Of a DNA stretch of 64,000 nt, positions 14,461-59,168 are shown piece by piece. Each line of letters starts with the position of its first letter. Position 1 is the first letter of the stretch. Both the position numbers and the translations under genes were made by a program. The DNA lies in contig CAWUHX010000244.1 of NCBI GenBank assembly GCA_963922205.1, positions 248,001 to 312,000 of the forward strand. Direction: 5' to 3'. The notes beneath the pieces were generated by a model, which had not been told where the DNA came from, did not search any database, and saw only the letters and a program-made list of their open reading frames with translations. Source of the DNA: Romanomermis culicivorax. Lineage: Eukaryota > Nematoda > Enoplea > Mermithida > Mermithidae.

Positions 14461-17400
14461 CTAAATGTCTGCTATGGCCAGTTTACGACATATCCAATAG
14501 CTGAAATGAGAAAAGCAGAGCGCGTATATAAAATGTAAAAAAATTAGTACTCTAGAATACATGAACATCATGCTGAACCGGGCTGTGTGAAAGGAGTTTT
14601 TCATTGCATCATGCGAAATGTAAATTCCTTTTTAACTGTCTCTGCGAATGGGATATGCAGCTCCATCAAAATCTTTGTAAATGATGAAAATGAAATGAAA
14701 GTCATTATTCGCGGTTATTCTAAGCTAATCCGCCATAATTTTTGAGTAAAAAACTGTAAAAGCCTTTTGTAAACAATTTTTATGTATTAATTTTTTTCAT
14801 TCTTTCAGAATTTCAAATTCAAAAATTCAAAATTTGAAAAGCCGAGATAATATTCTGAAATTTAAGGGAAAAAAATTTCGACACAAAGATCGAATTATCT
14901 AGTTACATCGCAGAATTTAGAAACCTCCCGAATCTTACCCGATGCACAACGAAAGAATGTTGCTGACCAAGAAAAAGGAGAAAACTTCGACCGAAAACCA
15001 ATCGCTGCGGATTATTTTCGTATGACGAACGCTCAAGGTATAGCCGGTCGGGTAGTAGCAGCGAACGGTGCCACCCGGCGTTTGGATCGGGCTGTTCGGC
15101 GGCGTGGTCATCGTACCGCCCGGATGGCGAAAACGATGCGACCTAAAAAGTAAACATTTTGATTTTGTAAAGCATACATGTGATTGGGGGTGGGGGAACC
15201 CCAGTGCGATGGGAACCCCCAGAAATCGTCGACCATATGGCTAGCTATTGGGCGACCCGCCAGGATTTTCCAATCCTGCGGCTGGCCGTATGGTAACCGT
15301 ACGGAGTCAAATACTTTTGGTCGGAAATATAATGAAAAATGTCCGTTTTTTGAACTAAATGGCCAAAAACGTCAAATTTCTCGGCGCTTTGAAACAAAAT
15401 TACTATTTTTTCAACCGTTTTTCGAACTTTTTTGGAGAAAAAATTGAATTTTTCTTCTTTCACATACCCCTTCCCCAAGATTTTGGGGAATTAGTGACCC
15501 CGGGCCCGAAAAAAGTCGTTCGACGCCCCCCAGACCTCGGGAGCCCGCTACATGTATGCTGTAAAGTGGAGCGTGTTGTCGTAAGAAGCCAGAAAATTTT
15601 CACTTGTAAACTGACCTATAACGCATTTAATAGCTCACAGAAAATGGTGTAATGTTACGAAAAATTTTCCCCCTCCGAAGGTCTTCCGCATACAAAAATT
15701 TGCATAAATGCGATGAACGATAGAACCTTGGCAGTTTTCAAGATGGTCTATCGAATGCATGTTTCATTATCAAATGTGCTTTAGTAGTTGCCAATATAAT
15801 GTATGGGTGAATTTTATGTAATGTACAACATTTTGTAAATTTTAGTGTAAACAATCTCCAGAGGGAAAAATAGTTATTAGTGTAACATACTGTAGGCTAA
15901 ATAATATGCGCAATTTCAAAATTTACATTTCGAAACTTTCCCTCGTTAAATTGGAATAAAAATTTCAAAAATTCTAAATTTAGCTCTTCGAGAAAAAATC
16001 TGAACTATTTTTGGTTGGCTGTTGAGCGCTTTTTTAAACGCGAATTTTTTTCTATAAAATGAAGGTGGAATTTCGCTTTTCTTTTATTCAAAACCCAAAC
16101 TTTCGCCCTAAACGCAGAAAAAACGCATGAAGATTGGGAGCGCAGAGATAAGAACTTTTTCCATTCTACTTTCCAACATATCTCGATTTTCTCGAAAGCC
16201 CCTATAATGGCGCATGTTTCATGTTAATTATAGGAAGTATTTCACGTGACACGCCTTTCAGTCGACGTTCGCTAGAGAAAAATCCATAAGAAAAAGCTGT
16301 AGGCTAACGAAGCACATGACGCGTGACGTGGTTGTTTATATATATCCATGAATGTCTGGAACATTGCCAACTGTCGCGGCAAACTGAGACGGCTTAGAAT
16401 TGATAAGCTCAAGTGTAGAAGAACGTATGATATGCTTACATATTGGATGTAACGAGAAATCGATCCTTTCTGAAATTTAATGCGGCGACAAACTCGATTC
16501 AAAAGTTGATTTTATTCATGCTTTAATGAGTATACCATCAAAATTAAGAAATGGTTCAACTCATTGTTTAAAAATTCTCCTTAAAAATCATTAACGTTCG
16601 CAGAGTACATTTTTCACATTTTAAACCTCTGGTTTTTGAATCTTATTGTGTCAAAAAAATTTTAAATTGATAATTTTTCTCAATTTCTTGGTCATAAAGT
16701 ATCATTTTTAACAACTATGTACCCCACATGTCTGATTTTTTGTGCGCTAAAAAACTTATCACTGTTTCGAAACGTCAAAACAAAATTTTAGTTTTTAAAA
16801 TGTTATATGGATGTATTATTCGATGCGAAACTAATTTTTTTCCGTAGCGTCGGCTAAACATGCGAAATTACGTTATCAGCAATCATGTTTAGTAGGAAAT
16901 CGACGAGCCAGACATAATAAGGGGCATGCGTTATTTGTTTTCAAGAGAAAAATATTTCCTAATAATTTGATGCAATTCTTCGGAAAAATCTCTATTTTTG
17001 CACAATGCTACCATTTTTGATAGGTTTTAAAACCAATCACGATATTACGTCAGACCAGGGTTTTTTTTTGACCTACGAGTCACAAGCCAAGTGGCTTGTT
17101 GACCTAAAATTCTACAAGCCATTCCAAATTTTTACAAGCCAATTTTATAATATCAGTATATGTGAATCAATTCCAATGCTAGGTTATTTTTTAAAGAAAT
17201 GTATTGAGCATAATGGCAATCGATCAAAAAAGAGATGTCATTCAACATTTATTCAATGACATTTTAGAGCCGTTAATTCATTAAAATTCTGGAAACATTT
17301 GAAATTTTTGAGTTTGATCGAAGTCGAATCTACAAGCATTGTGGAACAAATTTTCCAGCAAACTATCCAAGAACATAATAACTTTGAATTACACGAGAAA

Positions 17401-20400
17401 TCGGCGGTTAAATCCTCTATGATGACAAGTGAGAGCTCAAAAAAGCTATTAATCTTTCCTGTCTGAAACGCCGGAAAATTTTTTTGGGTATTGACATTCT
17501 GCGATGCTGAAAAATCAATTTTCCAAACACTTATTTGAAGAATTAGATTCAAATTTTCTGTTCAAAAGTCGTAATTTCTAGAATTTTATGTTTGAAAAAT
17601 TTTAAAACCATTAATTTATTCTCACACTCTCATGAACTTGGCCGAAAAGATATGAGTAAGAAGAGTAGAAATTTCCGAAAACTACTTCCACGAAGCTTTT
17701 GAATTGATTTTACATTAAGAAAGGAATAATCGCTTCAAAAAGTTTACAGACTTGACGTATTGATCTTTCTCAAAAAGTGTATCAAGGGAAAAATGTGAAT
17801 CTTCATTAAATATCAAGATGAAATATTGAAGATTACCAATTAAAACATGAGATAATACGTTTAGGATGATTAAAACTATTAAAGATTAAATGATAAGTGA
17901 AGGTAGACATGTTAGAAGCGGCGCCTGAGCTAGGAAATAAATTATAATGCTCATTAAAGTTATAACCGGCGCGAAGCGCCGTAAAATTTTGAGATTATGA
18001 CCTTCTAAAATGCACCAAAATGCATCTTTTCTGTATCCGATATGATCAAACACATGACTCAAAAAATTCTGACAAGCCATTTTGGCTTGTTGGACAAAAA
18101 TTCTACAAGCCATTTTGTCAGTCCAACAAGCCATGGCTTGTAAAATGCTAAAAAAAAAACTATGCGTCAGACATACATGTAACGGAGCCCTGAGGTCTGG
18201 GGGGGGGGGGGGTCGGGCGACTTTTTTTGGGGCCAGGGGTCATTGATTCCCAAAATTTTAGGGGGAGGGATCTCTGAAGGAAAAAAATTTGATTTTTTTC
18301 GGTAAATAGTCAGAAAAACGGTTCAAAAAATACTAATTTTTGCCTTAAAAAACTGTAAAAAATGTATTTATGGCGCGGGAACGCCGAGAAAATCAACATT
18401 TTTGATTATTTTTTTGTCCAAAAATTGACATTTTTCAGTATTACTCCAACCAAAAGTATGGGGGTCAGAGGTCCCCAAGGTCAGATTTTTCAAGTAGGGG
18501 TAAAGTTGAAAATTTTCGGGGTTGTGTAGCTAAATGCCCATTAACCGCGTCATTTTGTCTCAAAATTAGGGAACTAGTGATCAATTTTTAGGACTTTGGG
18601 CACGGGTAATACCCCCCTCATACCCCTACCCATGGGGTAGTCTGATGGGGGGTCCCTCACAGGGCTAGCCATAAGATTGGAAAATCTTGAGGGTCGCCTA
18701 ATGGGTAGCTATATGGCTGACAATGTTTCCGGGGGGCTGCTGTAGCACTTGCCCCCAATTAGATGTATGATGTCAGACTGTGATTATTTTCATCATCGGC
18801 CCTAGCGACTTCATCCTCCGATACAAAAAAACACTGAAAATGTCTATTTTGTTGTAGAATGTTGACAAAAAATGATAAAAATGTTCATTTTTTCGGCGTT
18901 TCGTAGATACAAATCTTCCGGTTTTTTAGTCAACAATGACAATTTTCCAACCAAGGTTCTCAGGCGAGGCGAATGATATCTATTTTGAGCTAAAATGTGC
19001 TGATGTTTTCAGTCACCTAAAAAGTTCGGCTAAATAGCTAGACAACCCAAGAATCAGCTGGAAATCAATCACTTTTCACAAATTTAAGCAAAAATCATAT
19101 GAATTTCGGCCTGAAACCACGCAAAAAGTTCGAAAATCGGCCAACTGAACAAAAATTTGAAGTCACCAACTAGCAAGAATTTATGAGATTTATTGGTTAC
19201 TGGTAAAAAGTTGACAAGAAATGACCTTATTTCGACTGGTTTCAGACGTTAATAAAGATTTTTCAATAATTTTCGAACTTCGGAGTCGAAAAAAACTGAA
19301 GATGTCAGTTTTCTGAAAGGAAGTTAAAAAGATATGGTCACAAATGCCTATTTTTCGGCCTTTTGAGCTAACAATTTTTGCGTTTTTCTTTTTCGATCAT
19401 TTTCGAGCTCTTTAAACGAAAAAAATTTAATGCGTCCATTCTGACGTAAAAAGTTGAAAACAAACGGCCAGAATCAGAAATTTCATAACTTTCAACGTTT
19501 TGCGCCATGGATACCAATTTCTGTGGGTTTTAGACAAAAATGACAATTTTTCAACCATTTTTGAACTATTCTTCTTATGGAAAATTGACAAGAAATGACG
19601 AAAACGCCTATTTGTTCTGTTCTTGGCGCCATAGATTCGAAGTTTAATAGTTTATAGTGACCACTTTTTCGAGCTTTTTGTCGAACATCAGCTAGAAATT
19701 TAACAATAAGTGCTCAGCAAAACGTAATTTTTAGCGTTCCGCGCCGCAATTTTTGTGGTTTTTAGACAAAAGCGGTAATTTTTCAACCGTTTTACTGGTT
19801 TTCTATGCAAAAAATGATAAACTTCACTTATCCGATGACCCTCAGACTCTAAATTTTGGCCAAGTACATATTATACATATTCTCACTTCGGAGGTAGCGC
19901 TTCGGGCCTGCTGCTCCAATCCCACAACCAATCGGTGGCCGACGTTTGAGAAGGCGACGGTCGAATGTGGCTAACCAATTTGAATTTTACGGCCTCCAAA
20001 GTTGGCCGCGTTTCTTGCATTCGATTTTGGCTTCGTACGCTTTTGGGGCTAGAAAATTATGCGTCTTAAAAGAATGTGAATTACTGTAGCCCTAGTGTAT
20101 TGTATACCTCGGTTTTGCGGACGTAAACGACAAAACATTGGCCGTGGTATCGAGAAGTTCCATCGATGCTCTGGAACTATCGTTGCTGTAAGGATCGCAA
20201 ATGTCAACCCAGCTATCTGAAGAGTTGAAATAAAAAAAATTTCGCAAAATTATATTCACACAATTTTTTACATTTAAATTTTACAAATTTTTTTCACATT
20301 CTTATTTTTGTCTCATTTTCGACTTATTCCACTCAACTTCTTTCTATTAACTGGCTAAAAATTTTTCCATCTTCACCTTGCATGGCATCTTCCAAAAGTC

Positions 20401-22580: not shown

Positions 22581-22819
22581 CATACATGCACATAGGGGGT
22601 AAGAGGGTAAACCCCCTTACCTAAGACCCTGACCACCCCCTGGCCCAAAAATATCGTCAAACACCCGCCCCTGAACTTTTTCCGAGACATGATTTTGTGC
22701 ATATTTTGTATGAAAAACAAGCTTACAGAATTTTTTTGTCTTTGCTCACCAAACCCCTACTCACCTGGATAAAAATTTCAAGGACCGCCCCCCTGAAAAA
22801 TTCTTGCCGTGCATGTCGG
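22581..22819. mobile_element. CATACATGCAC-ended MITE
   Basis: Left end CATACATGCACAT, right end GTGCATGTCGG, with G/C-rich blocks inside both ends. Flanks CTGGAAAC and CCTGAAAC match at six of eight positions. Belongs to the same end-type as 28756-29165 and 47900-48312 but with a different interior. Confidence 0.6.
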
Positions 22820-23776
22820 CCTGAAACTTCAAAAATCTTTTTGCCAGACCTAAATTTTTTCCATTTACAAAGTTAGGAACAAGCATATTATCTTCCAGCA
22901 GAAAATCTCAAATTTGCTAAATTGGGCTTTTTCGAGCGTTTTAACGCTTAGGAGAGCCAACTGGCACATTTTAAAAGTGCGGAAGAAGACTTAATGAAAA
23001 ATTGCATTATTTTAACAGTCAAAAATGACGCCGAATTTGATCTCGGTCAGTAAACCCGAAGTAGCATCATACCTGTAATTGGGGGGCCGGAGGGGAGGTT
23101 CACGGGAGACCGCGTCAACTTGGCCAACCCTATAATCAACCCCGGAAGAATTCGGAAAAAAAGTGACTTTTTTGGGGGAAATCCTCAACTGTTTCGACCT
23201 CTCCCCACCGTTTTTTTTCCTCAAATGAGGTCTTTTGGGGAAAAAAATTTCGAAATGAGGAAAAAATTTGGGTATGGTTCTCATTGTGGAAAAAATTTTG
23301 GGGAATTCAAAACCGAAAAGATGCGTTTTGGTGGACTTAAAAGGATCAAAATCTCAAAATTTTCCGACACTTCGCGCCGGTCATGGGTATAATCTTAACT
23401 ATTTTCTATCAGGCACAGCCGTTAGCATATCTGCTTCGACTTACTAGTTAATGCTCAACGGTTTCTATCAATCAAGTTAACTCGTTTCATTTTCTAATCG
23501 TTGACAGTCAATTATGTCGCCCAAAATTGAGATTTTTCATCAATTCTTTCAATTTTTTCTCTCGATGCTTGGAATTTTTTAAACGTTTGCAACCTGAACT
23601 TTTGCTTTTATTGAAGACGGAAATTGAAGACATCATTCTAGACTGCGATTTTAGAACTTCTGTTCATGAATATCTGTTGGAGAGATTTATTTTCCAGCGT
23701 TTTAGAATATAAAAACCCGAAAATTTGAAACAAACGTAATTTGAAACATCAGTTTGATTTTAATTTATTTCTCAAC

Positions 23777-23972
23777 CATACCTGTACTTGGGGGGGGGGG
23801 GGGGTTTGGGAAGGGACCGGCCAACCCTGTACCCAAAATCATCCACCCCCCCCCCAGTTTGGAAAAAATTAAAAAAATTTGCAAAAAAGTGTATGTTTTT
23901 TGGCCTTTTTTGGGAAAAATTTCGACTTTTTTCTACCCCCCACTCCAACTGGTCGGAGGTCTTACAGGTATG
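23777..23972. mobile_element. CATACCTGTA-ended MITE, copy 1
   Basis: CATACCTGTACTTGGGG at the left and GGTCTTACAGGTATG at the right. Perfect 8-bp duplication TTCTCAAC (23769-23776 and 23973-23980). The empty site is preserved in the inverted partner around 33385-33405, where the minus strand reads TTATTTCCCAACGTTATGAA. Confidence 0.92.
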
Positions 23973-24275: not shown

Positions 24276-24486
24276 CAAACCTGTACTTGGGGGCGGGGGT
24301 TGGGGGCCCCCCCCCCCCCAACTTGGCCAACCCTGTGCCCAAAATCATTTACCCCCCAACCCCCCCCCCCCAGTTGGGAAAAAATTAAAAAAATTTGGCA
24401 AAAAGTGTGTTTTTTGGCCTTTTTTGGGAAAAATTTCGACTTTTTTCTACCCCCCCCCCCAACTGGTCGGAGGTCTTACAGGTATG
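24276..24486. mobile_element. CATACCTGTA-ended MITE, copy 2
   Basis: Left end CAAACCTGTACTTGGGG (one base off), right end GGTCTTACAGGTATG. Perfect duplication AACCACAC (24268-24275 and 24487-24494). Interior is nearly the same as 23777-23972. Confidence 0.9.
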
Positions 24487-27327: not shown

Positions 27328-27625
27328 CGTATATACCTGTAAGACCACAGTTTGGTTATTGGGCGGGGGAGGGTAAGCTCAAAATTCGGGGGTAAGGCGT
27401 ACACAACCACTCCCAAAATTCTTTGCATGGAATCAAAAATTACCTAAAAACTTCCTAAATTTTCATCACAAAGTTTAAACAATGTTATTTTTGCCGAATT
27501 TTTTCGAGTTGGGGTGTTGGGTGTAACGGAAGTTATTGGGATATCTTAACATGAACGTTACAGGATCCGAGCGGGTTGTGGGGTGCGGGAGTCTCTCTCA
27601 AGCCCCCTAATTAACTACAGGAATG
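27328..27625. mobile_element. CATACCTGTA-type MITE, diverged copy
   Basis: Begins CGTATACCTGTAAGACC, ends CTACAGGAATG, with a G-run near the left end. Flanks TTACAGAC and TAACAGAC match at seven of eight bases. Confidence 0.7.
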
Positions 27626-28755: not shown

Positions 28756-29165
28756 CGTACATGCACGTGGGATAGGGTTTGGGGGAGGGTTGACCCCCAG
28801 CAGATTATTGAACCCCAGCAGATTCTTGCTGACCCCCAGCAGATTTTACGCCCCCAGCAATAATTGAGAAATTGATGAACAAAAATGAGCAAGAGAGAAG
28901 AGAAAGTCGTCATAAAAATGGAAATGATGCTGTAGTTTAACAATTTTTCTAAACAAGGCATACTTGATCCCAAAGGAGAAACATTATAACTTTAAAAGTG
29001 CATTCTAAGATACTTATTCTACAAATCTGACTAATATAGTTGTAAGAATATGCTGTTCGGACGTTAGAATACCTTTCTTTTCGTTATCATAAACGAAAAA
29101 AAATTTTGTGTTCCACCCCCTGTTCTGGCTGACCCTCAGCAGAATTTCTATGCTGTGCATGTATG
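28756..29165. mobile_element. CATACATGCAC-ended MITE with CCCCCAGCAGATT repeats, copy 1
   Basis: Near-identical in layout to 47900-48312: left end CGTACATGCACGTGGG, three CCCCAGCAGATT units, a GAGAAAGTCGTCATAAAAAT block, right end GCTGTGCATGTATG. Flanks ATGGTGAC and ATGCTGAT match at six of eight. Confidence 0.8.
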
Positions 29166-29796
29166 ATGCTGATCCTTAAAAATTTGCCACTGTACGGCTC
29201 AAGTCTGAAAATATTAGTATATTAGTAGAAACAGCAACTTTTGGTAAAGTTTTCTTGATGATTGGGAAATATTTGTTGAACAATTTTTCAATTTCCAACT
29301 CCCCATATTCTTGGCAACATATGACACCCCTCTATAAAGTCCCACAGCCGACCTGCAATCATTGTTCAATGATACAGGCGGTAGTCATTTTTTTCATACA
29401 TGATTCCTCTTTGATGATCTGGTGGTAGATGACAGTACCCCTAGCTTCCATTTTAGTTTCCCCGTGAGAATACTAGTGTAACATCTTCTTGTCACATTAT
29501 CATCTCTGGCGGATGGGTAGAACTAAAATGCCAATTAGTTCAGGCAACTTGTTCCTATCACTTGCGTCTTCGATAAAAGCTAGGCATGCTCCACGACATA
29601 GATCCAGGATCTTGTGGCTATTACCCGCGTACTATAACCGACCGAGCAACAGGGAAGGTGCCCTCACATTGCACAAGATCATAGTTGACGTGGTTGCTGT
29701 GACCACTTGCACCAATTCTGATTATGGATGCAGATCGTAGATTAGTACCTAAAATGTGGATAAAGACCATGGAGTCTTATCACTGAAATAAGTCAA

Positions 29797-30265
29797 AGCC
29801 TAAGCCTAAGCCTAAGCCTAAGCCTAAGCCTAAGCCTAAGCCTAAGCCTAAGCCTAAGCCTAAGCCTAAGCCTAAGCCTAAGCCTAAGCCTAAGCCTAAG
29901 CCTAAGCCTAAGCCTAAGCCTAAGCCTAAGCCTAAGCCTAAGCCTAAGCCTAAGCCTAAGCCTAAGCCTAAGCCTAAGCCTAAGCCTAAGCCTAAGCCTA
30001 AGCCTAAGCCTAAGCCTAAGCCTAAGCCTAAGCCTAAGCCTAAGCCTAAGCCTAAGCCTAAGCCTAAGCCTAAGCCTAAGCCTAAGCCTAAGCCTAAGCC
30101 TAAGCCTAAGCCTAAGCCTAAGCCTAAGCCTAAGCCTAAGCCTAAGCCGAAGCCTAAGCCTAAGCCTAAGCCTAAGCCTAAGCCTAAGCCTAAGCCTAAG
30201 CCTAAGCCTAAGCCTAAGCCTAAGCCTGTGCCTAAGTCTAAGCCTAAGCCTAAGCCTAAGCTCAA
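29797..30265. repeat. Interstitial telomeric array, CCTAAG x about 77
   Basis: Almost pure tandem of CCTAAG, equal to the nematode telomere unit TTAGGC on the minus strand. Rare variants are seen at about 30147 (CCGAAG) and 30226 (CCTGTG), and it decays at the right edge. Ordinary unique sequence lies on both sides, so it is internal and not a chromosome end. Confidence 0.97.
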
Positions 30266-32964: not shown

Positions 32965-34240
32965 CGTTTTTTTTTCCTCGAAGATTTTTTCCACATGAGA
33001 ACTGGACCCAAAATTTTTTCCTCATTTTTCTAAAATTTTCCACATTTTTAAAAACGCTTATAATGTGGCTACGGATGCTTTTTTATGCATTTTAGGAGCA
33101 TACCCAGGCATTTTGTTGTATTTGTAGTCAGAAACCTGCAGAAATGAGGAAAAAAATTGAGAAAATTCTGGTTATGTTAGTCAAAATGAGCTCATGAAGA
33201 ACATATTGGTGTTCTATAGGAGCGAATAAAGCAAGTTAACGATAAATTTCTCATGAATTTATCTGCTATCAACAGTTCTGTGACTATGATTAGAATCATC
33301 TAATTATATTTAGTTCTTGGTCCGGCGCGGAGCGCGGGAAAAATTTTTTGATTTTCACTTTCTAAAACGCTGGAAAATGAACCTTCATAACGTTGGGAAA
33401 TAAATTAAAATCAGACTGACGATGTGTAATTTGCTTCCCATTCCGGCGCGAAGCACCGGAAAAATTTTCGGGTTTTTGTATTCTAAAACGCTGAAAAATA
33501 AATCTCTCCAACAGATAATTCGTGAACAAATGTTTTAAAATCGCGTTCTAGAGTAATGTCTTCAATTTCCACCTTCAATAAACGCAAAAGTTCAGATTGC
33601 AAACGTTTAAAAAATCTTAATCATCGAGAGAAAAAATTTAGAGACCTGATGAACATACCTGTAAGACCTCCAACCAGTTGGGGGGGGGGGGGGGGGGTAA
33701 ATTCGAAATTTGGGGGGGGGGGGTAGGAAAAAGTCGAAATTTTTCCCAAAAAAGGCCAAAAAACATACACTTTTTTGAAAATTTTTTTAATTTTTTCCAA
33801 ACTGGGGGGGGGGGAGTTGGGGGGGGGATGATTTTGGATGCAGGGTTGGCCGAGTTGGGGGGGGGGGGCCCTCCCCCAACTCCCCCAAGTACAGGTATGC
33901 TGATGAAAAATCTCTATTTTCGGCGACATAATTAACTGTAAACGATTAGAAAATGAAACGAGCTAACTTGATTGACAGAAACTGTTGAGCATTAATTAGT
34001 AAATCGAAGTAGATATGCTAACGGCCGCGCCTGATAGAATATAGTTATAATTATATCCAATACCGGCGCGAAGCGCCGAAAAATTTTGAGATTTTGACCT
34101 TTCAAAGTCCACCAAACGCATCTTTTCGGTTTAGAGTTCCCCAAAATTTTTTCCACAATGAGAACCATACCCAAAATTTTTTTCCTCATTTCGAAATTTT
34201 TTTCCTCAAAAGACCCCATTTGAGGAAAAAAACGGTGGAC
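32965..34240 (-). repeat. Right member of the inverted duplication (partner 23205-24815)
   Basis: Reverse-complement counterpart of 23205-24815, including palindromic tips (CCGGCGCGGAGCGCGGG at 33321, CCGGCGCGAAGCACCGG at 33443, CCGGCGCGAAGCGCCG at 34063). Interrupted by the MITE at 33654-33899. It preserves the empty site of the MITE at 23777. Confidence 0.8.
33654..33899. mobile_element. CATACCTGTA-ended MITE, copy 3
   Basis: Left end CATACCTGTAAGACC, right end GTACAGGTATG, inverted relative to 23777-23972. Perfect duplication CTGATGAA (33646-33653 and 33900-33907). The empty site exists in the partner at 23533-23545 (minus strand AATTGATGAAAAATCTC). Confidence 0.93.
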
Positions 34241-35260: not shown

Positions 35261-35689
35261 AAGCACATCAAAGAGGGAAAATTTCTGAAACTAGCCAATC
35301 GAGAGTCTGAGGTTAGAGCTTATTGGGGTTCTAGACATCTTTTGTTATCAAGAGAGCTGCAAACGTGAGGTGTAATTTTGTATCAGGAATGCATGGGTAT
35401 ATTGATTTTTCATAAAAATCGTTATTTTCTGAGATTTATCAGAAAAAGGTCAAAATGGTTGTTTTTCTACCCTCGGAAAATAATCCAACTCTTTTGCCAT
35501 GATGCCAATTTGCATGGACAGTGCACATAGAAGGCCTGCACTTTCATGTTTTTGGTCAGTGTGTTTATTTCTATTGTAAAAGAACAAACGTCAGTCTGAC
35601 TGGCCAATGGCCATTTTTCATTATTGATTATGCTTTTATTGCATTTGTGTGGAATTAGTACCCCAAATTAGTATCCCCCTAACACGAGA

Positions 35690-36085
35690 GGTTAGAACCC
35701 TGGTCTCAGGAATACCAATTTGCATGCAGGTCTACATTCTCAAATTCAATGTCACCCACCATCTGGACAAGTATTGGTCATCTCACAGCAGAGGTTAGAA
35801 CCTGATCTCAGGAATACCACCCTGTGTGCAAGTCTACATTCCCAAATTCAACGTCGCCCACGGTCTGGACAAGTACTGATCATCTTACAGCAGAGGTTAG
35901 AACCCCCGTGTCAGGAATATCACCCTCCCTACAAGTCTACATTCCCAAATTCAATGTTGCCTGCTCTCTGGACAAGTATTGCTTATCTCACAGCAGAGAT
36001 TAAAACCCGTGTCTCAGGAATACCACCCTGCATGCAAGTCTACATTCCCAAATTCTACATTCCCAAATTCACCGCAGAAAGACAG
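35690..36085. repeat. Tandem repeat, ~102-bp unit, about 3.7 copies
   Basis: CTCAGGAATACCA recurs near 35704, 35806, 35910 (as TCAGGAATATCA) and 36012. Each is followed by AAGTCTACATTCCCAAATTC and CTGGACAAGTA. The open frames across it (35720-36091) reflect the repeat. Confidence 0.85.
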
Positions 36086-40883: not shown

Positions 40884-43800
40884 TCATGCAATTCTTGACA
40901 CATTTTCGTCGATTTTTGTACACATCATGAATGAATATACGTGCTGCCTCAATGTTCTGAAAAGATGAGAAAGTAATGAATGAGATGACAAAATAAAATT
41001 CAAGAGAATGGTTGTGCTGGCGTTTTGGCTACAGTAATTCTTGTACGATCGACTGCCGTCATAAGGGATAATATTAGTCATAGTATTGTAATAATTAGTA
41101 TCAGTATTTGTCACGACAGTGATATTAGTAATAGTATTTTTATAGTATTAATAATAGTATTAGCATTAGTTTTTGTCGTCGTATAGTGATAATAGTGGTT
41201 GAAGTAGTATAGTGATAATATTGATAGTAGCAGCAATAGTAGTAGTAGTACTTGTAGTAGAATTTGCGCAAAAAAATGTCCATAAATATAGGTTGCTCTT
41301 CTCTGCCTAGCTTGTGCCTCTTTGTGTTCCATTTCCTGTTTAGATAGATATCATAGTTATCAATATCAGCAGTGTTAGTAATAGTAGTCCCATAGTATTA
41401 GTAGCAGTAGAAGTAGTAGTAGTAGTGGTAGTGATAGTAGTGGTAGCATTAGTAACACTAACAGTGCTGACATGTTACAGCAAGGCACAACTTACCTGAG
41501 ATTAACCTATAAGTTACATACCTGTTTAGCATACAGTAGATCATAGGATTGATGCTGGCGTTCATTAGCCATGTAAAATCCAACCACAAATAACACCATA
41601 TGGAACGGTGGCTTCTGGGTGTAAAAATGTTAAGCACAACATATGTGGCGATCACGCCCATGAAACACGTGCCCGTAATTAAGCCTTGCAAGAACAGTTT
41701 CACTTCTTGCTTGCACAAACGGCTATTGTCCACCATTGTAACAGAATGGCGAACTTTGCGCAACCAGAATAAAATTCGCAAATTGTAAAAACCGATGAAA
41801 ACGAATGAAAAATAACTCTGCGACATGGTCAAAATCAGCAACAATTTGCCTAATAAACCAGTTTCGATGTCGTTGCCCCAGGAAAGGATTTCTGGTGACC
41901 ATCTGAAAAATGGATAAAAAAAGCATGATTTTGATGTCAGCTTATTTGAGAAGATATGTATTTTTATTTCAGACCAATTATCAGACGCTAGCGTACATTA
42001 GCAGCGGGGAATGTGTGCCAAACTTTAAACAAAAATAACTCCATCAAAGAACCAAAAAACTTTGATTATTTTCCGAAATTATTGTATTTTAGGTGACAAA
42101 AGGGCATTTTGAATGTTTTTCTGAGAAATTTCAGTAAATGAAATTTTCTATGGAAACCAATACACCTATCGGATTTCATGTGCAAAATAAATTCCAAAAT
42201 AAATAAAAATGTGAAAGACCTCCACAGAAGCCAAGGGCACTTTCCTCCAGTAAGCCGTAAGCTTAGAAATCCACTTTGAGGGCTGCTGGTATACTTAAAC
42301 ATAGGAGGCGGAGCAACGCCTTCGATAAGCTAATTTCAGAAATTTCCATCCTTCGATATGCCACCTATCTTAAATTTTTTTCTAGATGAGATGTTGTCGT
42401 TTTTCAAAGTTAATTGAGATAGGATATTGATTTTTTACAATATCACACATTGATTTTTTTCCAATATGCCATCTCGATTATTGAAAAGGAAGTCCAACGT
42501 CGAAAAAATTTGCATCTCGATTTTTTTGGCGATACATCTTGAAATTTTTGTGATTTGCAAAATGTTGCGCATCATTTTCGAAGGTAATGATTTTTTCAAG
42601 TGGCCCTTCTTGTATTTCATACCATCCCAATCTATAATACTAGATGACGTATGTCCATTTTTTATGAAGGATGATAGATACACCTATGGAACATACTTGG
42701 AAACCTATGCTAATGATGCTGAGGAAACGTGGCTGAAGAATTGCAAATTTGTGCCATAGTTTATGTCACAGTTACAAAAAGCGGTTCACACCAATGTGCA
42801 GTGAAAGCTTACTTCCATACATGTAATTGGGGGGAAGTGCTATGGGAACCCCCCCCCCCCAGAAATCGTCGACCATATGGCTAGCCATTGGGCGACCCCC
42901 CCCCCTGGATTTTCCAATCCTATGGCTAGCCATATGGTAGCCCTAGGGACCCCCATAGTTTTAGTCGGAAAAATACTGAAAAATGTCATTTTTTCCATGA
43001 AAAATGTCAATTTTTGAACAAAAAATGGTCAAAAACGTCAATTTTCTCGGCGCTTCGCGCCATAAGTACATATTTTATCATTTTTTAGACAAAAATTACT
43101 ACTTTTTAAACCGTTTTTCGGACATTTTTCATGGAAAAAATCGAATTTTTTTCCTTCAGGGACCCCTCCCCCCAAAATTTTGGGAATTACTGACACCCGG
43201 CCCCAAAAAAGTGCTCCAACCCCCCCTCCCCCAGAGCTCGGAGCTTCGTTACATGTATGCCAACAAGTAGTGGTTTATGTGCAATGGGCTATTTGTGGTC
43301 AATTTATTACTAAGAGAAGAAATGGGCTACAGCTATTGTTTATGTAGTCTGTTTTTCCAAATGCAACATTTTTGAAAACAACTGCAATGCGTACAAAGTG
43401 TGTTGCCACGCAACTCTGTAATTTACTGTAGCCTGGAATAGCAATGTGGCTTTGAGTTTGTTCTGATTCGGTTCAATTTATGCTTTCTATTTGGTACCGT
43501 CCCAACACCGCCACTTTCTTGTCCCAACTTTCGCAATCTTTCGAAAAGTTTATTTTTTGTAACACGTTAAACTTAACCAAATGTGCTTATCAGATCTATG
43601 AATGAACAATATTTTAAGATATAAGTAATAATTTTTCCGTGTCAATTTATCATATTTATTCATCAATTCCGAATGCAAATTTCAACATTGTTTGACAAAC
43701 GTTTAGAACTTTTCTTCCGGAACAGAAAACACAAATCGGGATCATTACGCACTGCAATTATCACTAAATTACTCTTTAATTCATGATTCATAAAATTTTC

Positions 43801-46727
43801 AATAGGACAAAAGTCACCCATGATTTGATTACACAAATTCGAATCAATTGACAACAAGAAATGAAAACAGACACATATATTTGTATTTTAATGTGCAAAG
43901 CACACAGTTATTTTGGTAATATGCTAATGAAGTAAATTCCCAGTCTCACGCTCGTTGTTCTATTTTTGGTTATTTGGGTAAAATCGTTTGTATAGCTAAG
44001 TACGACTATACAAACGAAGATTATATAGATATACCATGTATTTATTGCTTTAATGATAATATCAGTTTTTGCCATCCTACGAATTAGCAATGTCATGTTG
44101 TTAAGTTACAAAAAAACTTTGTTACAAAAAACAAACTTTTTGAAAGATTGCGAAAGTTAGGACAAGAAAGTGGCGGAGTTGGGACGGTGGCGGTGTTAGG
44201 GCACGAAAGTGGCGGAGTTGGGACGGTGGCGGTGTTGGTACGGTGGCGTAGTTGGGGCACGGTCATCTATTTATTGGTATTAAGAATAGTATGTAAGTAA
44301 ATTTGATTTCAGATTAATTTAACCGGGTGAATGCCAGTTTTTGACTATCGGAAATTGAATATGATGTCTATTTTGCATGAATTCCAGGACAGAAAAGTGG
44401 AAAATTCATTTAGTGAACAGGAGGAAAAAATGTACTTCAAAGACGTAAGTAGCAGTCAGAAATTAATGCTATACAATGAACAGCTAGCATTTGACGATCT
44501 GTTAAATTCCACATATGATATTCCATATCCATTCATTTCGGCTGCTATTATTAGTGAAGCAAAGTATTTTGTGAATGATTGCACGCAAACTGTTGTAGCA
44601 GCAACAGAAACTTTTTGAATTCAAGATGGAAAAGGCAGCATTTTTGTTCAAGTTGGGACTCTTTTTTTGGCTAGAATTTCTAGAATTGTTCAAGCTACTT
44701 TGTTCCACAAATAATTTGATACTACAAAAATTAAGTCAAAAACTATTATTCCTGATATCCATTCTTCTCTTCCAACACAGAAATGCGACAATAGAACCAT
44801 TGATTTGAAATGAAAATTGAAATTCGTGCAGCATTCAGCACTCAAGTTTTGAGCTGAAAATTAGAATATTAGACATTCGGTGATGCTTTGTTGCAACTTC
44901 ATTTATGTTAGGTACAAACAGAATAAACTTAGGTCAAAATTTCGCAAATTTAAATTTTCCTAAATAGAATTGCATGAATTGCAACTAGCAGGAAATGCAA
45001 AAAATATGAACTTCTGATTCTACTAGCTCAATCTCATCTTTTCACTCCCTTTTAATTTTCAGCAATAAAAACGGACACTTTTGCCGAAAATCCTCACCGT
45101 TTGCCTACTTGTGAAGCTATCCAATGCCTGAACTACATTCTCATTTGACGCTGATTCCAGAATGGACAGGAAAACACATTATTTCGTCAAATTCTGCGAT
45201 TTCTAGCAAACAATCCACTTATAGGTTTGGGATACCAAACTGTTGCCTTACAATTTCTGCCTGAGGGATTGTCATTGGAGGTCACATTCAATAGAGACTA
45301 AAGATATTGGAGTAACTCTCATTTAGTTATATTAACCCGCTCACTATTGTTTTATTCAGATTCTTGCAGGCAGACCTGTACCCATTTTTCTATAACCAGA
45401 AAGGCAGACTTTACAGGACTATACAATCACAAAAGTGCACACTCTTTGAGAGCTTTTGCCACATAGTGGAGGCCACATTCCACAGGCTAGCTTCTGCCTG
45501 ACAAGCAGGACTTGTTCGGGTACATCACATTGTCAAGATGAAAAGGGGCAGAAAAGACTATGACAAGCAGCTTCTCGAGCATGCCTACACAATTAATCAA
45601 CCCTGTAACAATGAAAAACTGCGTCTGCTCAGGCCAGCTACCGAAAAATTGATTGCGGGCTACATTCAGAGTCAAACCTGGTTCTCGAGACTAGTAGTTG
45701 GAAGTTAGAACCACTAGACTAAGACGACCCACTATTTACCATTCTAACATATGCATATGTTGGTAATATTATGGAAGATGTTGCAGAAAAACAAACTTGC
45801 TGGACAAATAAACAGATTCAAATATAGTAGTGAGTTGATGGAACTTATGACTTATGTACTCACTGATCTGCTCATGCAAGAACGTTTTTTTTTAACTGAA
45901 CCGATGGTTGAGTTTTGAGAGTTTGGTTTCAAATTAATTAACATCTTCCAGATTTTTTGTGTGAATGATGAAAATTCATCGCGGATGTCACAATAGGAAT
46001 CTATGCCATTTTGCACTGATTATTTCTTCCATCAAAAAAAGTTGAACTGAAATTTCTACCAATGTACTAAGCAATAGGAACTCTGCCTATATATAATCTC
46101 AGCTGCCACTGAAGCACCTGAAAATGGTAGACTGGCATTGTCAAAGCGGTCAACAGTTTCAGTTCATTCTCATTTTCAAACTTATAAGTTTACCTTGCCC
46201 AAATTTCTGTATGGAACAAATTATCACCTGGTGAGACTTCCACTATCCGGATTATAGAACTGCACGGAATAAACACTTCCCATCACCAACCACGAACAAA
46301 TAATGTAGATTCGAATTTTAGCTTGTGAAAAGTAATCTTCCAGTTTATCGTTGCCGCATAAAGTGATGTAACGACTGTAGACTATACAACATAGGAAACA
46401 GCAACCCGGGTGCCAGCCGAAATTCAACGTGAATGCAAAAAAATCGTGCAAAATGGGGCATTGATTTGGCAATCGTGGAAAAAGAATGAAAACCGCAGTA
46501 CCAATTGAAACGCATACCAAAACGATGATATCAGCCAGGGCCAATTGTACCATGAATACGTAGGTCGGACTTTTGTACCGTTTACTGTACCTAGTTTTTA
46601 TATAGGCTATCAAGGCATTAAAAAATATTCCCGGGATGCCGATCGATAGAGCCATGGATAGGAGTACATAGCGAGGAAGCGAATCAACGCCAGAATCGTC
46701 GAATGATGATGTGAAGTTCCTGTCCAT
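40884..46727 (-). CDS. Rhodopsin-like seven-transmembrane receptor (orphan, nematode serpentine type), complete
   Basis: Three exons: 46727-46228, 41902-41522 and 40956-40884, introns of 4325 and 565 bases, both phase 2, giving 317 residues. The N-terminus is short with an NFT glycosylation site. TM1 is around residues 21-43, and TM2 carries VQLALADIIVLV with the conserved Asp. TM3 follows QCPILHDFF and ends in VYSRYI, so the E/DRY arginine is kept but the acid is Ser. TM4 contains CSWLVMG. TM5 lies around LLLILTMSQSYFSFVF, TM6 around GLITGTCFMGVIATYVV without a CWxP motif, and TM7 ends NASINPMIYCMLN (NPxxY). The tail is RTLRQHVYSFMMCTK, resembling the helix-8 and palmitoyl-Cys region. The TM3-start Cys is present but no partner Cys is seen in loop 2. 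Ligand unknown; chemoreceptor or peptide receptor both possible. A TTTTTAG acceptor ends at 46745, 18 bases before the ATG. Confidence 0.88.
42816..43259. mobile_element. CATACATG-ended MITE (GTCGAC subfamily), copy 3, in receptor intron 1
   Basis: Left CATACATGTAATTGGGG, right TTACATGTATG, core AGAAATCGTCGACCATATGG and GGATTTTCCAATCC shared with 15173-15558. A hairpin-family piece (CGGCGCTTCGCGCC) is at 43047. No clear duplication is left (CTTACTTC against CCAACAAG). Confidence 0.75.
43490..44275. mobile_element. Minisatellite-tipped inverted-repeat element, copy 1
   Basis: The left tip reads CCAACACCGCCACTTTCTTG and the right tip its complement repeated as GTGGCGGAGTTGGGACGG units (44165-44255). 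Inside both tips come the inverted segments AACTTTCGCAATCTTTC and GAAAGATTGCGAAAGTT, then TTTTTTGTAACA and TGTTACAAAAAA. The interior matches 51490-52372 in the opposite orientation. A small open frame (43663-43857 minus) is of unknown function. Confidence 0.75.
44331..44618 (+). other. Possible 95-residue gene or exon, unknown
   Basis: ATG-initiated frame 18 bases after a GATTTCAG acceptor, complex composition (FDYRKLNMMSILHEFQD, KLMLYNEQLAFDDLLNSTYD), ending at a TGA. It lies antisense inside the receptor's first intron. No family is recognised. Confidence 0.3.
45061..45293 (+). pseudogene. Exon-like fragment with two in-frame stops, unknown
   Basis: After TTTTAATTTTCAG the frame reads TDTFAENPHRLPTCEAIQCL. 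Two stop codons follow, then the same frame continues NTLFRQILRFLANNPLIGLG and FLPEGLSLEVTFNRD to a stop. The content looks protein-derived but unidentified. Confidence 0.3.
45368..45733 (-). repeat. tRNA-derived SINE family 2, copy 2, in receptor intron 1
   Basis: Minus strand begins GTCGTCTTAGTCTAGTGG (A-box) and carries a B-box-like GGTTTGACTCT about 45 bases later. The body matches 36968-37379 in the same order. Confidence 0.65.
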
Positions 46728-46746
46728 CGTATCCAGCTCCGTATCT

Positions 46747-47380
46747 AAAAATCAAATTTCTAGAATACCTTGAGGACATGGAAAGTGAAAGTATGCAAAT
46801 CCTGGAACAAAGATAAGAAGTGTCTGACAACTGATGTTCAATATGTCGGATACAGCGTATCATGAGGCTTGTTAAAAAAAAGAATTCGATAGCTACATAA
46901 CAGGGGTCCCTCTGCTTGTCCATTTCATAAAAGGGCTACAGTTTTATATAAGTCAGGTTTCTATAGGCTATCGAATACACAATAACATAACGGCTTCAGA
47001 AATTTGTTAACTTAACTTATACTTTTTTTAAATTTCGAAAATCGATTTTTATTAACAGTTTGTAAAGCTAGCTTGGCAATCATGTGATAGTTCCGTCATG
47101 ATCAACTTCCAAAATAATAATGAGCAACAGAGCGTTTGAATTTGAATTTGAATTTGTATATAATCATCACCCTTAAATCGATGTGGTTTCAATATTTTGG
47201 ATATTCATCAGCTTGAATGTCTCTGCCTTTTATACATTTTCTGTAATTATTTATGCAATATATTGTTAAAAGTCCACATATATAAATTTTTGTAGCCTCT
47301 CTCAACTCAAAAGGATTGGAAAGTTATGATAATGTGTTGGCTGTTCTTAAAATGGCTAGTCCTGCACCGACGGACAGTCT
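46747..47380. other. Intergenic upstream of the receptor gene
   Basis: AT-rich; would hold the receptor promoter. No recognisable motifs, only a short (GAATTT)n tract near 47135-47155. Confidence 0.4.
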
Positions 47381-47899: not shown

Positions 47900-48312
47900 C
47901 ATACATGCACGTGGGGGGGGGGGGTTTGGGGGGTCTTGACCCCCAGCAGATTTTTATTGACCCCCAGCAGATTCTTGCTGACCCCCAGCAGATTTGAGTT
48001 CCTCAACAATGGTTGGGAAGATGACGAAAGAAAATTAGCAAGAGAGTAGAGAAAGTCGTCATGGAAATGGAAATGATGCCATAGTTTGACAATTTTTCTA
48101 AATAAATCATACTTGATTCCAAAAAAAGTAGCATAGAAACTTTAAAAAGTGCTGTTTAAGCAAATAATTTCACTTATCTGACTAATATAGGTTGAAGAAT
48201 ATACTGTTTGGATGTTAGAAGACTTTCGTTATCAAGAACGAAAAAAAAATTTTTGTATTCCACCCCCTGTCCTGGCTGACCCCCAGCAGAATCTCTATGC
48301 TGTGCATGTATG
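47900..48312. mobile_element. CATACATGCAC-ended MITE with CCCCCAGCAGATT repeats, copy 2
   Basis: Ends CATACATGCAC and GTGCATGTATG are exact 11-bp inverted repeats. Perfect 8-bp duplication GTCACACC (47892-47899 and 48313-48320). G-run inside the left end; interior matches 28756-29165. Confidence 0.95.
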
Positions 48313-51489: not shown

Positions 51490-52372
51490 AATACTGGATC
51501 GTGCCCCAACTCCGCCACCGTCCGAACACCGCCACTGTCCCAACTCCGCCACTGTCCCAACACCGCCACCGTCCCAACTCCGCCACTGTCCCAACTCCGC
51601 CACTTTCTTGTCCTAACTTTCGCAATCTTTCAAAAAGATTGTTTTTTGTAACAAAGTTTTTTTTACTTAACAACATGACATTGCTAATTCATAGGATGGC
51701 AAAAACTGATATTATCATTAAAGCAATAAATACATGGTATATTTATATAATCTTCGTTTGTATAGTCGTACTTAACTATACAAACGATTTTACCGAAATA
51801 ACCAAAAATAGAACAACGAGCGTGAGACCGGAATTTACTTCATTAGCATATTACCAAAATAACTGTGTGCTTTGCACATTAAAATACAAATATACGGATC
51901 TGTTTTCATTTCTTGTTGTCAATTGATTCGAGTTTGTGTAATCAAATCATGGGTGACTTTAGTCCTATTGAAAATTTTATGAATCAGGAATTAAAGAGTA
52001 GAACGGGAACGATTTGATGGCCAGAATAACAGATTATTTGCGTCATTTAGTGCATCTATTGGGTTAATGTTGAAATTTGCATTCGGAGTTGATGAATAAA
52101 TATGATACATTGACACGGAAAAATTATCACTTATATCTTAAAATATTGTTCATTCATTGATCTGATAAGCACATTTGGTTAAGTTTAACGCGTTACAAAA
52201 AATAAACTTTTTAAAAGATTGCGAAAGTTGGGACAAGAAAGTGGCGGAGTTGGGACAGTGGCGGAGTTGGGACGGTGGCGGTGTTGGGACACGATAGTGG
52301 CGGAGTTGGGACGGTGGCGGAGTTGGGATGGTGGTGGTGTTCGGACGGTGGCGGTGTTGGGACGGACCCAAA
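51490..52372. mobile_element. Minisatellite-tipped inverted-repeat element, copy 2
   Basis: Same element as 43490-44275 in the opposite orientation, with tips of CCAACTCCGCCACTGTCC-type units at 51505-51610 and the complementary units at 52225-52370. It starts directly after the Harbinger TAA duplication. Open frames over the tips (Pro/Ser/Thr/His-rich) are artefacts. Confidence 0.75.
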
Positions 52373-52428: not shown

Positions 52429-53540
52429 TTTAAAACGTGACGCGTCACTAGGACGCATGACATTAGGGCGCAGACAATAGGACGCAGGACATTAGGACGC
52501 AGAAATTTAACCCCAGAATTTGTGAAAGTCAATCTGAAGGGTATTATTCACTGTTCTGGAGGCTCGCTTAGAAGTGGGTTCAAAGAAACTGAAGAGTCTT
52601 GAATGCCTCTTCGAGTCAGTTTAAAAAGCAGTGTCAGTTCAGACATGGTGCAACGATAGAATATCTATTTATTTTTTAAAGCCATAAATACGACATTGGA
52701 AAAGTCCCAAAACGCCACATCCTGGAGTCTTATGGAAAAAGTCTTACGAGCAGTTTGTTTTGTAAAATAATAGGGAACCATAAAACTTTAGTGGGAGCCA
52801 AAAAATAACACAAAGTGCTAGAATTGTAAAAATTCATCAATATTTGTTTCTCTCATGTTAGCATTTGGACATGCAAATGGATCAGGTGTGTCACTGGATC
52901 TCGAAAAGACAAAGGCTTGATGATTTTTCTTGAGTGTCACTTTCTCCCATTAGAAAAAATTAAATCATGAACACGAAATGGTACATTATTAACACATATC
53001 TTTCATATAATAAAATTAATGCTGAGAAAAATTTCCATGCAGCAATAAATTCCATTATTTTGTCACACGATTGTATGTTTTAACATCCTCGGATGTTAAA
53101 AAAAAACATTATCCTAAGCCTAAGCCTAAGCCTAAGCCTAAGCCTAAGCCTAAGCCTAAGCCTAAGCCTAAGCCTAAGCCTAAGCCTAAGCCTAAGCCTA
53201 AGCCTAAGCCTAAGCCTAAGCCTAAGCCTAAGCCTAAGCCTAAGCCTAAGCCTAAGCCTAAGCCTAAGCCTAAGCCTAAGCCTAAGCCTAAGCCTAAGCC
53301 TAAGCCTAAGCCTAAGCCTAAGCCTAAGCCTAAGCCTAAGCCTAAGCCTAAGCCTAAGCCTAAGCCTAAGCCTAAGCCTAAGCCTAAGCCTAAGCCTAAG
53401 CCTAAACCTAAGCCTAAGCCTAAGCCTAAAAAAAAATAGTGGTGGTGAACTACTACAAAAGGTCCTCCTAATGTCCCTGCGTCCTAATGTCTGTGTCCTA
53501 ATGTCTTGGGTCCTAACGGCATAGCCCCGTTTTAAAAATG
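52429..53540. mobile_element. Foldback element carrying a telomeric-repeat array
   Basis: Inverted arms of about 75 bp. The left arm (52429-52504) contains GCATGACATTAGGGCGCAGA and GACGCAGGACATTAGGACGC; the right arm (53463-53540) contains their complements, such as CCTAATGTCCCTGCGTCCTA. Between them are about 600 bp of AT-rich DNA and the array at 53113-53429. Confidence 0.75.
53113..53429. repeat. Interstitial telomeric array, CCTAAG x about 53
   Basis: Uninterrupted CCTAAG tandem with one variant (CCTAAA at 53401), same orientation as the 29797-30265 array, ending in an A-run. Internal to an inverted-repeat element. Confidence 0.97.
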
Positions 53541-53938: not shown

Positions 53939-54775
53939 TTCGGCACTTGTGTATAGTTCAGGGGGTACGGAATTTTTTTTTTCAAAATTTTCTCAAATTT
54001 GCATATTTCCGACCAAAATGATGATGCTGATTACGAATATGTCAATGGTTTTCCCTAAAAGCGAATATTTTGACTGAAAACAGGGTGTCCTATGGCAATT
54101 TTTTTTTCAAATTTGCATATTTTTGATTATGTTACGAGTAAATCGGTGATGCTGATCACGAATATGCCGGTGGTTCACCGTGATATCAAATATATTGATC
54201 AGGAAATATTTGCTGTGAGGTTTGAGTTTTTATCAACCTATATTTTATTGTATAAAAACCATCAGTTTACACTTTACAAACTTACAATAGTCAATAATTC
54301 ACTTCGAGTGAGTGTAGTGTGCATTATTTCGTCGCTTTTGTTGTTCTATTTTTAATATGGCCAATGTTATTTTTTTATGTTTAATCGATTTACCAAATTT
54401 CAATGGAAAAAATCGATCCTGTCATAATTCCCCAAAAAAAGCCAATTTTAGAAGCTATGCTACACAGCATCAGCAAACTACAGGCTGATAAAAATGCAAA
54501 CAACACAGTCGACATATTCGATAGTATGACATCTACTGGCATTATTCGTGATCAGCATCATCGATTTACCTGGAACATGCAATCAAAGATATACAAATCT
54601 GCAAAAAAAATTTTGTCATAGGATACCCTGTTTCCAGTCAAAATATTCGCTTTTAGGGAAAACCATTGACATATTCGTAATCAGCATCCTCATTTTAGTC
54701 AGAAATATTCAAATTTGGGACAATTTTGAAAAAAAATTCCGTACCCCCTAAACTACACAAGTGCCGAATCTTCTT
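53939..54775. mobile_element. Inverted-repeat element with ~155-bp arms
   Basis: Left arm 53939-54092 (TTCGGCACTTGTGTATAGTT, GGGGGTACGGAATTTTTTTT, AGCGAATATTTTGACTG) matches the complement of 54617-54775 almost base for base. Possible ATCT duplication at the ends. The interior holds two open frames, 54092-54355 and 54403-54621; the second begins MEKIDPVIIPQKKPILEAML, and neither is recognised. Confidence 0.75.
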
Positions 54776-55971: not shown

Positions 55972-56260
55972 CATTCATGTGAAGGGGCCACCAAGTTTTG
56001 GGGAGGGGGCCCGGACGACTTTTTAGGGGGCCGGGGGTCACTGATCCTGCAAAATTTTAGGGGAGGGGTCTCTGAAGGAAAAAAAATCGATTTTTTCTCC
56101 AAGAAAGTCCGGAAAATTGTACAAAAAATGGTAATTTTTCTATGAAAAACCGTTAAAAAGCACCAAAAAATTGACATTTTTGACCATTTTTCGTTCAAAA
56201 ATTGACATTTTTCATTAAAAAATTGACTTTTTTCTGTGTTTGTCGGACCAAAAGTGTGGG
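55972..56260. mobile_element. CATACATG-type MITE fragment (GTCGAC subfamily), decayed
   Basis: Starts CATTCATGTGAAGGGGCC and contains GGGGGCCGGGGGTCACTGAT and GGGTCTCTGAAGGAAAAAAA, matching the start of 18172-18769. The far end is not preserved. Confidence 0.6.
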
Positions 56261-56499
56261 CTTCTCGAGGCGGATTTTTAAATGAAGACTTTAAAAAATC
56301 GATCTAATGATTCAATAGACATTGACAATTTTTGGTTGGTGTTGATCACAATTTATCCCCAACCAATAGCTTCTTGATAAAATGTTGATGAATAAAAATT
56401 CATCATTGAATTTTGGTAGAGTCAGTACAAAAAACTGCAGAATAAATGGCATACAGTAACAACAGCATTAAGTAATATAATTTTATTGGCCAAAATGTA

Positions 56500-57060: not shown

Positions 57061-57119
57061 TGAACAAGGTATTATTTCTCGATCGCTCGTTTCGGATCGC
57101 TCACAACTTCCCTGATACT

Positions 57120-58620: not shown

Positions 58621-58895
58621 AAGAATACCTCTTTTTCAGCCACCGTAAAAATAAAAATGCTAATTTATCACTCTCAAGGCGGATTCATACTTCATCCGGC
58701 GTCCGGTATCCGAAAAAGACTATTTTCAGATTTTCTATCCGGCAAGTCGTCCGGCATTCCGGCACCGGATGACGTCATTTTTTTCGGATTCCCACAGAGT
58801 AGAAACAGTTTGTACTTTTCCGGATGCCGGAAAGCATATTTTGTATGCAATTTTAAAAGAACCACGTGTTTAATTGGTTTTTGCATATACAATGT

Positions 58896-59168
58896 CATAC
58901 CTGTAAGAGGCACGACCATTTGGGGGGGGGGGGGGGGGTAAACGGAAGATTTTGGGGTAGAGATCCCGAAATTTCCAAAATTTTGGGGAGGGGGGTCGAA
59001 ACGAGCCCAAAAAATCGAAAAAATTTCGAAAATTTTTCCAAAAAAGACCAAAAAAAGCCACTATTTTCCTAATTTTTTCCAATTTTTCCTACTCTGGGGG
59101 GATTGGGTATAGGGTTCACCAAATTAAGGGTGTGAGTCCCTCCAAACCCTCCCCTGATTAGAAGTATG
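58896..59168. mobile_element. CATACCTGTA-type MITE, copy 4
   Basis: Left CATACCTGTAAGAGGCACGA then a G-run, right end GATTAGAAGTATG. Perfect 8-bp duplication TACAATGT (58888-58895 and 59169-59176). Confidence 0.88.

Follow-up and report, generated by a model that had tools for sequence, protein, structure and literature searches.

The window analysed here is a 64-kb stretch of the genome of Romanomermis culicivorax, a mermithid nematode (contig CAWUHX010000244.1, positions 248,001–312,000), which carries copies of four families (F1–F4) of miniature inverted-repeat transposable elements (MITEs) with the tip CATACMTGYA, a G tract behind the tip and 8-bp target-site duplications (TSDs). An initial annotation of the window had described at least ten copies of several subfamilies with common ends, and had proposed that one transposase mobilises unrelated cargo between them. 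We regard the elements as real, abundant and non-autonomous cut-and-paste transposons, probably of the hAT class. As a kind, such MITEs are familiar, but the arrangement of the tips in these families is unusual.

MITE copies in the window

We counted 16 occurrences of the tip CATACMTGYA in the window, compared with 0.22 expected from shuffles. Tips lying up to 12 kb apart, with at most two mismatches each, were paired and their flanking 8-mers compared, using flanks displaced by 11 different shifts as the control. Six pairs had flanks matching at 7/8 positions or more (five at 8/8, and 15173–15558 at 7/8), while the control yielded 0 to 3 such pairs per shift. Family profiles were built from paired elements and then used to search the window, which marked six copies or fragments of F1, four of F2, and two of F3 (12 in all), in addition to one F4 copy read by eye (Table 1); the initial description of several subfamilies with at least ten copies is borne out. 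All five duplications that had been described as exact were recovered as 8/8 flanks of paired tips, and the two described as near-exact, at 15173 and 27328, both match at 7/8; the left tip of the element at 24276 had been given wrongly and is corrected in Table 1. The 8-bp duplication is not universal in the window, as the flanks of 42816–43259 are unmatched and those at 18172, 28756, and 22581 agree at 6/8. A second F4 copy, with a TSD matching at 7/8, was found in a locus fetched from elsewhere in the genome (L107, 1358–1618).

The counted copies exclude weaker, tip-less profile matches (e.g., 200–390, 5498–5559, 18799–18952, 19284–19859, and 34039–34127), which may be old fragments or low-complexity sequence. 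A lone CATACCTGTA tip without a partner lies on the minus strand at 5457–5466, next to the F1-like piece at 5498–5559.

Table 1 Copies and fragments of the four MITE families in the window (positions are those of the window)
Feature	Position	Strand	Length	TSD or flanks	Tips and ends	Detected by
F1 MITE	23777–23972	-	196 bp	TTCTCAAC, 8/8		tip pairing and profile
F1 MITE	24276–24486	-	211 bp	AACCACAC, 8/8	left tip CAAACCTGTA	tip pairing and profile
F1 MITE	33654–33899	+	246 bp	CTGATGAA, 8/8		tip pairing and profile
F1 MITE, diverged	58896–59168	+	273 bp	TACAATGT, 8/8		tip pairing and profile
F1 MITE, old	27328–27625	+		TTACAGAC/TAACAGAC, 7/8	left tip with 4 extra bases	profile match 27333–27625; flanks by eye
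F1 fragment	23068–23211	-			short-spacer end present, other end not found	profile match and tip
F2 MITE	15173–15558	-	386 bp	TTGTAAAG/CTGTAAAG, 7/8		tip pairing and profile
F2 MITE	42816–43259	-	444 bp	flanking 8-mers unmatched	both tips intact	profile match
F2 MITE with extra sequence at ~18469–18649	18172–18769	+		GCGTCAGA/ATGTCAGA, 6/8		two profile matches; flanks by eye
F2 fragment, overlooked in the initial annotation	55972–56270	+			long-spacer end, degenerate tip CATTCATGTG	profile match
F3 MITE	47900–48312	-	413 bp	GTCACACC, 8/8		tip pairing and profile
F3 MITE	28756–29165	-		ATGGTGAC/ATGCTGAT, 6/8	degenerate left tip (CGTACATGCA)	profile match 28757–29165; flanks by eye
F4 MITE	22581–22819	unassigned		CTGGAAAC/CCTGAAAC, 6/8	short-spacer end CATACATGCACATAGGGGG, degenerate long-spacer end	by eye

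Structure of the ends

The ends were studied in the window together with loci fetched from the rest of the genome (hereafter sampled sequence), a non-random choice in which 28 loci were picked by end motif (L001–L008, L062–L081), six extend such places (L082–L087), and the rest come from transposase or THAP hits. A G tract had initially been placed just inside one end; the tract is present at both ends and at different distances: one end has it 2 nt behind the box, the other 15–17 nt, depending on the family. Among 95 exact boxes in the sampled sequence, the distance from the box to (T/A)GGGG was 2 in 34 cases, 15 in 28, 16 in 12, and 17 in 5, with other distances or no tract in 16. Most of the 35 elements paired in the sampled sequence (see below) combine one short-spacer with one long-spacer end, the exceptions having a mutated G tract at one end. 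Intermediate spacings of 4–13 gave 3,321 matches; among 100 that were listed, inspection by eye showed that most are short-spacer ends followed by a second G run and about one in ten are not. G-quadruplex motifs were present at 9/33 short-spacer and 1/33 long-spacer ends, against a background of 0.3% per 90-mer.

The families differ in the long spacer, which measures 15 nt in F1 (AGACCTCCGACCAGT), 16 in F2 (ACGGAGCYCYGAGGTC), 17 in F3 (CAGCATAGARATTCTGC), and 15 in F4 (CGGCAAGAATTTTYC; seven exact long ends genome-wide), as well as in the tip variant, CCTGTA in F1, CATGTA in F2, and CATGCA in F3 and F4. Within one element the tip variant is identical at both ends in 28/33 cases and unlike in 5/33. 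When the interiors of F1, F2, and F3 were compared with homopolymers collapsed, none of the six comparisons scored above the best of 200 shuffles (F1–F2 ties with it). An F1–F2 interior homology, hinted at by cross-matches of the profiles, was not upheld after this collapsing.

Abundance, target sites and age

Genome-wide counts were made on an assembly of 359,112,060 bases in 595 contigs; version 2 of the R. culicivorax genome is described as 359.1 Mb in 595 scaffolds (PMC10879605), and a GC content of 36% is given for the species (PMC3890508). The strict short-spacer end CATACMTGYANNTGGGGG occurs 4,646 + 4,567 = 9,213 times on the two strands, while the reversed control gave 0. Counting no more than these ends, the families already account for a considerable share of the 359-Mb genome. 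The looser pattern CATACMTGYAN{0,24}TGGGGG gave 11,133 + 12,820 matches (control 4 + 3), an approximate total since one end can count twice; the strand difference probably arises from multiple starts of the variable gap. In the sampled sequence, 590 tip pairs lying 80–700 bp apart resulted in 35 elements whose flanks match (8/8 in 26), whereas flanks taken further out as a control gave 0 at 8/8 and 3 at 7/8 or better. The genome-wide check on the end motifs and duplications that had been suggested for this claim was thus positive. F1 and F2 end patterns were absent from viral_contigs.

Further statistics refer to 33 of these elements, L107 (F4) and L005 (doubtful) being left aside. They span 87–458 bp, with paired F1–F3 copies of 172–458 bp and a single 87-bp form that was excluded from the family alignments. 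Short length, inverted tips, a TSD of constant length, high copy number and a size too small for a transposase gene are the features of MITEs, and all were found here. Copies nested in others with perfect TSDs of their own also exist, e.g., an F2 element inside a broken F1 (L082). Of 16 long-spacer ends on C1 that had no listed strict short-spacer partner, 6 were closed within 1 kb with a TSD at 7/8 or better, 1 was closed as a nested 1,796-bp unit, and 9 were left unclosed. No partner was found to close the long-spacer end at C1:292867, which was seen in L006 only.

The median divergence from the consensus, with G/C runs omitted, was 4.9% for F1 (n = 18, range 0.0–22.3), 5.6% for F2 (n = 9), and 7.8% for F3 (n = 5), and some copies are recent. 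Of two of the nine F2 elements in this alignment, which both belong to the 33-element set, L081 3391 sits in a segmental duplicate of L081 958. The L081 locus itself (C1:2227250–2231750) contains a tandem duplication of ~2.4 kb with several MITE copies in each unit.

The TSDs favour the pattern nTnnnnAn, with T at position 2 in 18/33 and A at position 7 in 25/33 (binomial p = 4e-8 against a base frequency of 0.32), while a test for palindromic target sites was negative (86 vs. 84.6). The same 8-bp nTnnnnAn target is described as the preference of the hAT transposase Hermes (PMC10368747), and both the TSD length and the target bias of a hAT element are found in these MITEs.

hAT elements and the search for a transposase

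Genome-wide, hAT transposases gave 150 scored matches among 1,837 candidates, and 54 of these loci were viewed, most of them in part (30 loci, L009–L038; one 864-aa frame, L061; and 23 3′ flanks, L088–L107 and L109–L111). Three loci fetched through the hAT dimerisation domain, L090, L092, and L101, have a related end ~400–415 bp behind the domain. Over the 570 bp that lead up to the CATGG tip CATGGCCGTAGCCAGGAATTTTTTTCGGGGGGGGG, L092 and L101 agree at 98.9%; they differ in the flanks past it, and this divergence marks the tip as the end of the element. The tip of L090 is near-identical, with one mismatch in 16, and its G run is broken (offset 31). The offset at which the G run starts is 26 in L092 and L101, and likewise 26 in F1 and F4 long ends (27 in F2 and 28 in F3), while in the background of the window, outside annotated MITEs, only 1 of 7,365 CA dinucleotides had its first G run of at least 5 at offset 24–29. 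Another locus, L032, contains a 154-bp element with CAGGG tips (CAGGG is the usual hAT start), a perfect 8-bp TSD ACTAGGGA, and a G run at offset 26 at one end.

Candidates for the autonomous partner were sought among other transposases as well. MULE transposases gave 122 matches, of which 20 were viewed within 1.5 kb and had no paired CATAC ends of their own, including in a relaxed scan; MULE TSDs are mostly 9 bp. No KDZ/Zisupton transposase candidate was obtained in a search to which the control genomes were equally silent. Five stretches behind long-spacer ends that had no near partner (L083–L087) were scanned too, and none of them, nor any viewed transposase locus, is an element with CATAC ends; the boxes present there are neighbouring MITEs, lone tips, or matches with 1–3 mismatches. 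Two candidates were rejected: at L088, where a long-spacer end lies 480 bp behind a hAT domain, the hAT element has its own end before that point, at a TAGGG tip, and the 6 kb upstream contain no partner tip; at L082, the 1,796-bp unit with a perfect TSD consists of an F1 MITE broken by a fragment resembling a long interspersed nuclear element (by eye), an F2 MITE, and another F1 piece.

Source of mobility

We are quite confident that these elements represent at least four families of non-autonomous cut-and-paste transposons (MITEs) mobilised in trans, most likely by one or more hAT transposases that would make 8-bp staggered cuts at nTnnnnAn targets. Tips, TSDs, target bias, spacing, copy number, unrelated interiors and the like-spaced G tract at the ends of hAT-coding elements were seen directly, and from them we infer the hAT source, the roles of the box and the G tract, and the movement in trans. 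In the mechanism that we propose, each end would be a two-part site, made of the 10-bp outer box CATAC(A/C)TG(T/C)A and an inner (T/A)GGGG tract placed 2–3 nt or 15–17 nt away; the outer box would be the point of strand cutting and the G tract a putative transposase binding site, the unequal spacing could tell the two ends apart, and the transposase would insert the element at 8-bp nTnnnnAn sites.

Several points weigh against a hAT source. The CATAC tips of all four families fail the hAT tip rule YARNG; CATGG, a true hAT end in this genome, also departs from it at position 3. The target consensus of the P element likewise has T at position 2 and A at position 7, hence the target bias alone does not settle the transposase class. 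The comparison with L090, L092, and L101 covers only the 3′ end of each hAT element, and any short/long asymmetry in L092 and L101 is conjectural; in the L032 element, the G run of the other end stands elsewhere. The common layout of tip plus G run could be convergence, and no autonomous CATAC-ended element was found among the loci viewed (54 hAT, most in part, 20 MULE, and 2 Merlin).

A P-like transposase is a very unlikely source. Its elements combine a terminal repeat and an inner binding site at unequal spacing with an 8-bp TSD (PMC7776569), and the same combination, as a likeness of layout, is present here with spacings of 2 and 15–17. The P domains were unmatched (PF21787, 0 candidates; PF12017, 0/7; PF21789, 0/10) in a search to which the control genomes were also silent, which leaves their absence unproved; moreover, the 3.2 kb fetched for two THAP hits contained no P-like frame, and the hAT-type end of L092 and L101 favours hAT. 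Merlin (IS1016-like) transposases, which have TSDs of 8–9 bp, are abundant in this genome (PF12762 matched 150 of 247 candidates, with an open frame of ~300 aa in many), and we still judge it highly improbable that they move these MITEs: Merlin tips start with GG and those described here with CATAC, and of the two matches viewed among the 150, the intact 311-aa copy at L112 has long repeated ends and only the CATAC tip of an adjoining F1 MITE, while L113 has no CATAC tip in the 800 bp downstream. It is also unlikely that the source is a transposase superfamily outside Pfam, perhaps missing from the assembly. The tip is not known to match any superfamily consensus, the viewed hAT, MULE, and Merlin loci have no CATAC ends, and P and KDZ were undetected; against this stand the hAT-like target bias, the like-spaced G tract at hAT ends, and the fact that the loci viewed are a minority of the transposase copies.

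The proposal that one transposase moves unrelated cargo held in part, since the interiors are unrelated in the shuffle test, while a single enzyme is unproven, the tips and spacers being family-specific and no autonomous element having been found. That one transposase serves all four families is possible, though we lean against it. The core of the box, the inner G tract and the TSD length are constant across F1–F4 and allow one enzyme, as do the elements with unlike tips (5/33, e.g., L001, an F1 with one CATACATG tip); the family-specific tip variant and long-spacer length, together with the agreement of both ends in 28/33, argue for several related enzymes. The family-specific pattern as such fits either several related transposases or one tolerant one.

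A further idea about the hAT source, which we put forward as rather doubtful, is that a lineage within hAT or beside it, spread through the mermithid genome, requires unlike ends for transposition, under a rule of 2 vs. 15–17 nt between the CATACMTGYA cutting box and the G-tract binding site. This would be a third unequal-spacer system beside V(D)J/Transib and P, with a long spacer that drifted by single bases between families. No description of these ends with their family-specific long spacer was found in the literature searched, and the EDTA annotation referred to in PMC10879605 may list them with a generic name. With unrelated interiors between ends of a single design, the families serve as natural replicates in which to ask what each end must offer a transposase. 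The bimodal spacing provides a testable hypothesis on how unlike ends are paired, which is also a subject of research on V(D)J recombination and P elements. Identification of the transposase would settle the placement of the group, as well as the number of enzymes (one or several) that act on the four families.

Other features

Exons of Nop14 lie on the minus strand of the window at 345–1519, and an exon of a rhodopsin-type seven-transmembrane receptor at 46224–46751. Two interstitial arrays of TTAGGC, the nematode telomere repeat, occupy 29796–30261 (78 units) and 53113–53429 (53 units). A 17-bp minisatellite, GTGGCGGAGTTGGGACG, is found at 51505–51604, 52241–52365, and 44155–44256; at 51553–52291 it is arranged as two inverted arms of 100 nt (96%) that enclose a core of 539 bp. 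This minisatellite is probably the end of another repeat family. Inverted arms of 133 nt, 92% complementary and 496 nt apart, were detected at 53975–54107 and 54604–54736, and a 103-bp tandem repeat (3.6 copies, 83%) at 35687–36055.

In the fetched loci, a 1,123-bp element at L086 (162–1284) has the tips CAGGGCCGTG and CAGAGCTGTG, a perfect 8-bp TSD ACAGTACT, and a G run close behind the second tip; judged by its tips, it is another hAT-like family. Merlin/IS1595 transposases are numerous, many with intact frames of ~300 aa (e.g., L112). Longer open frames were found for a hAT (864 aa, L061, C77:1204000–1210000) and for three MULEs (1379–1445 aa, C226:315395, C386:82832, and C10:1459607), all four being candidates for recently active elements.

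Comparison with known systems

Merlin/IS1016 elements, abundant in this genome, resemble the MITEs described here in their TSD (8–9 bp) and differ in their GG-start tip, and the two viewed copies have no CATAC ends of their own. Transib differs in making 5-bp duplications, as opposed to 8-bp here. Its recombination signals and those of V(D)J recombination have in common with our elements a site in two parts whose spacer is short in one form and long in the other, an analogy that PMC7776569 draws for the P element, and which is a likeness of layout, with no sequence match claimed.

P and the zebrafish P-like elements have 8-bp TSDs, unequal spacing and internally deleted copies in common with this system, and the P spacings of 9 and 21 bp have been likened to 12/23 recombination signals (PMC7776569). 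The differences lie in the spacing itself (9/21 there vs. 2/15–17 here), in a repeat of 31 or 13 bp vs. a 10-bp box, in the G tract present here, and in the P domains, which were undetected here.

The MITEs differ from hAT elements in their CATAC tip, compared with YARNG, in the fixed short/long spacing seen in them, and in that no hAT transposase was found between CATAC ends. They share with hAT the 8-bp TSD and the nTnnnnAn preference, and with the local hAT copies L090, L092, and L101, which have the CATGG tip, the G tract that in L092 and L101 stands at offset 26. Hermes adds a further likeness, as its subterminal repeats are likewise described as asymmetric between the two ends (PMC10368747).

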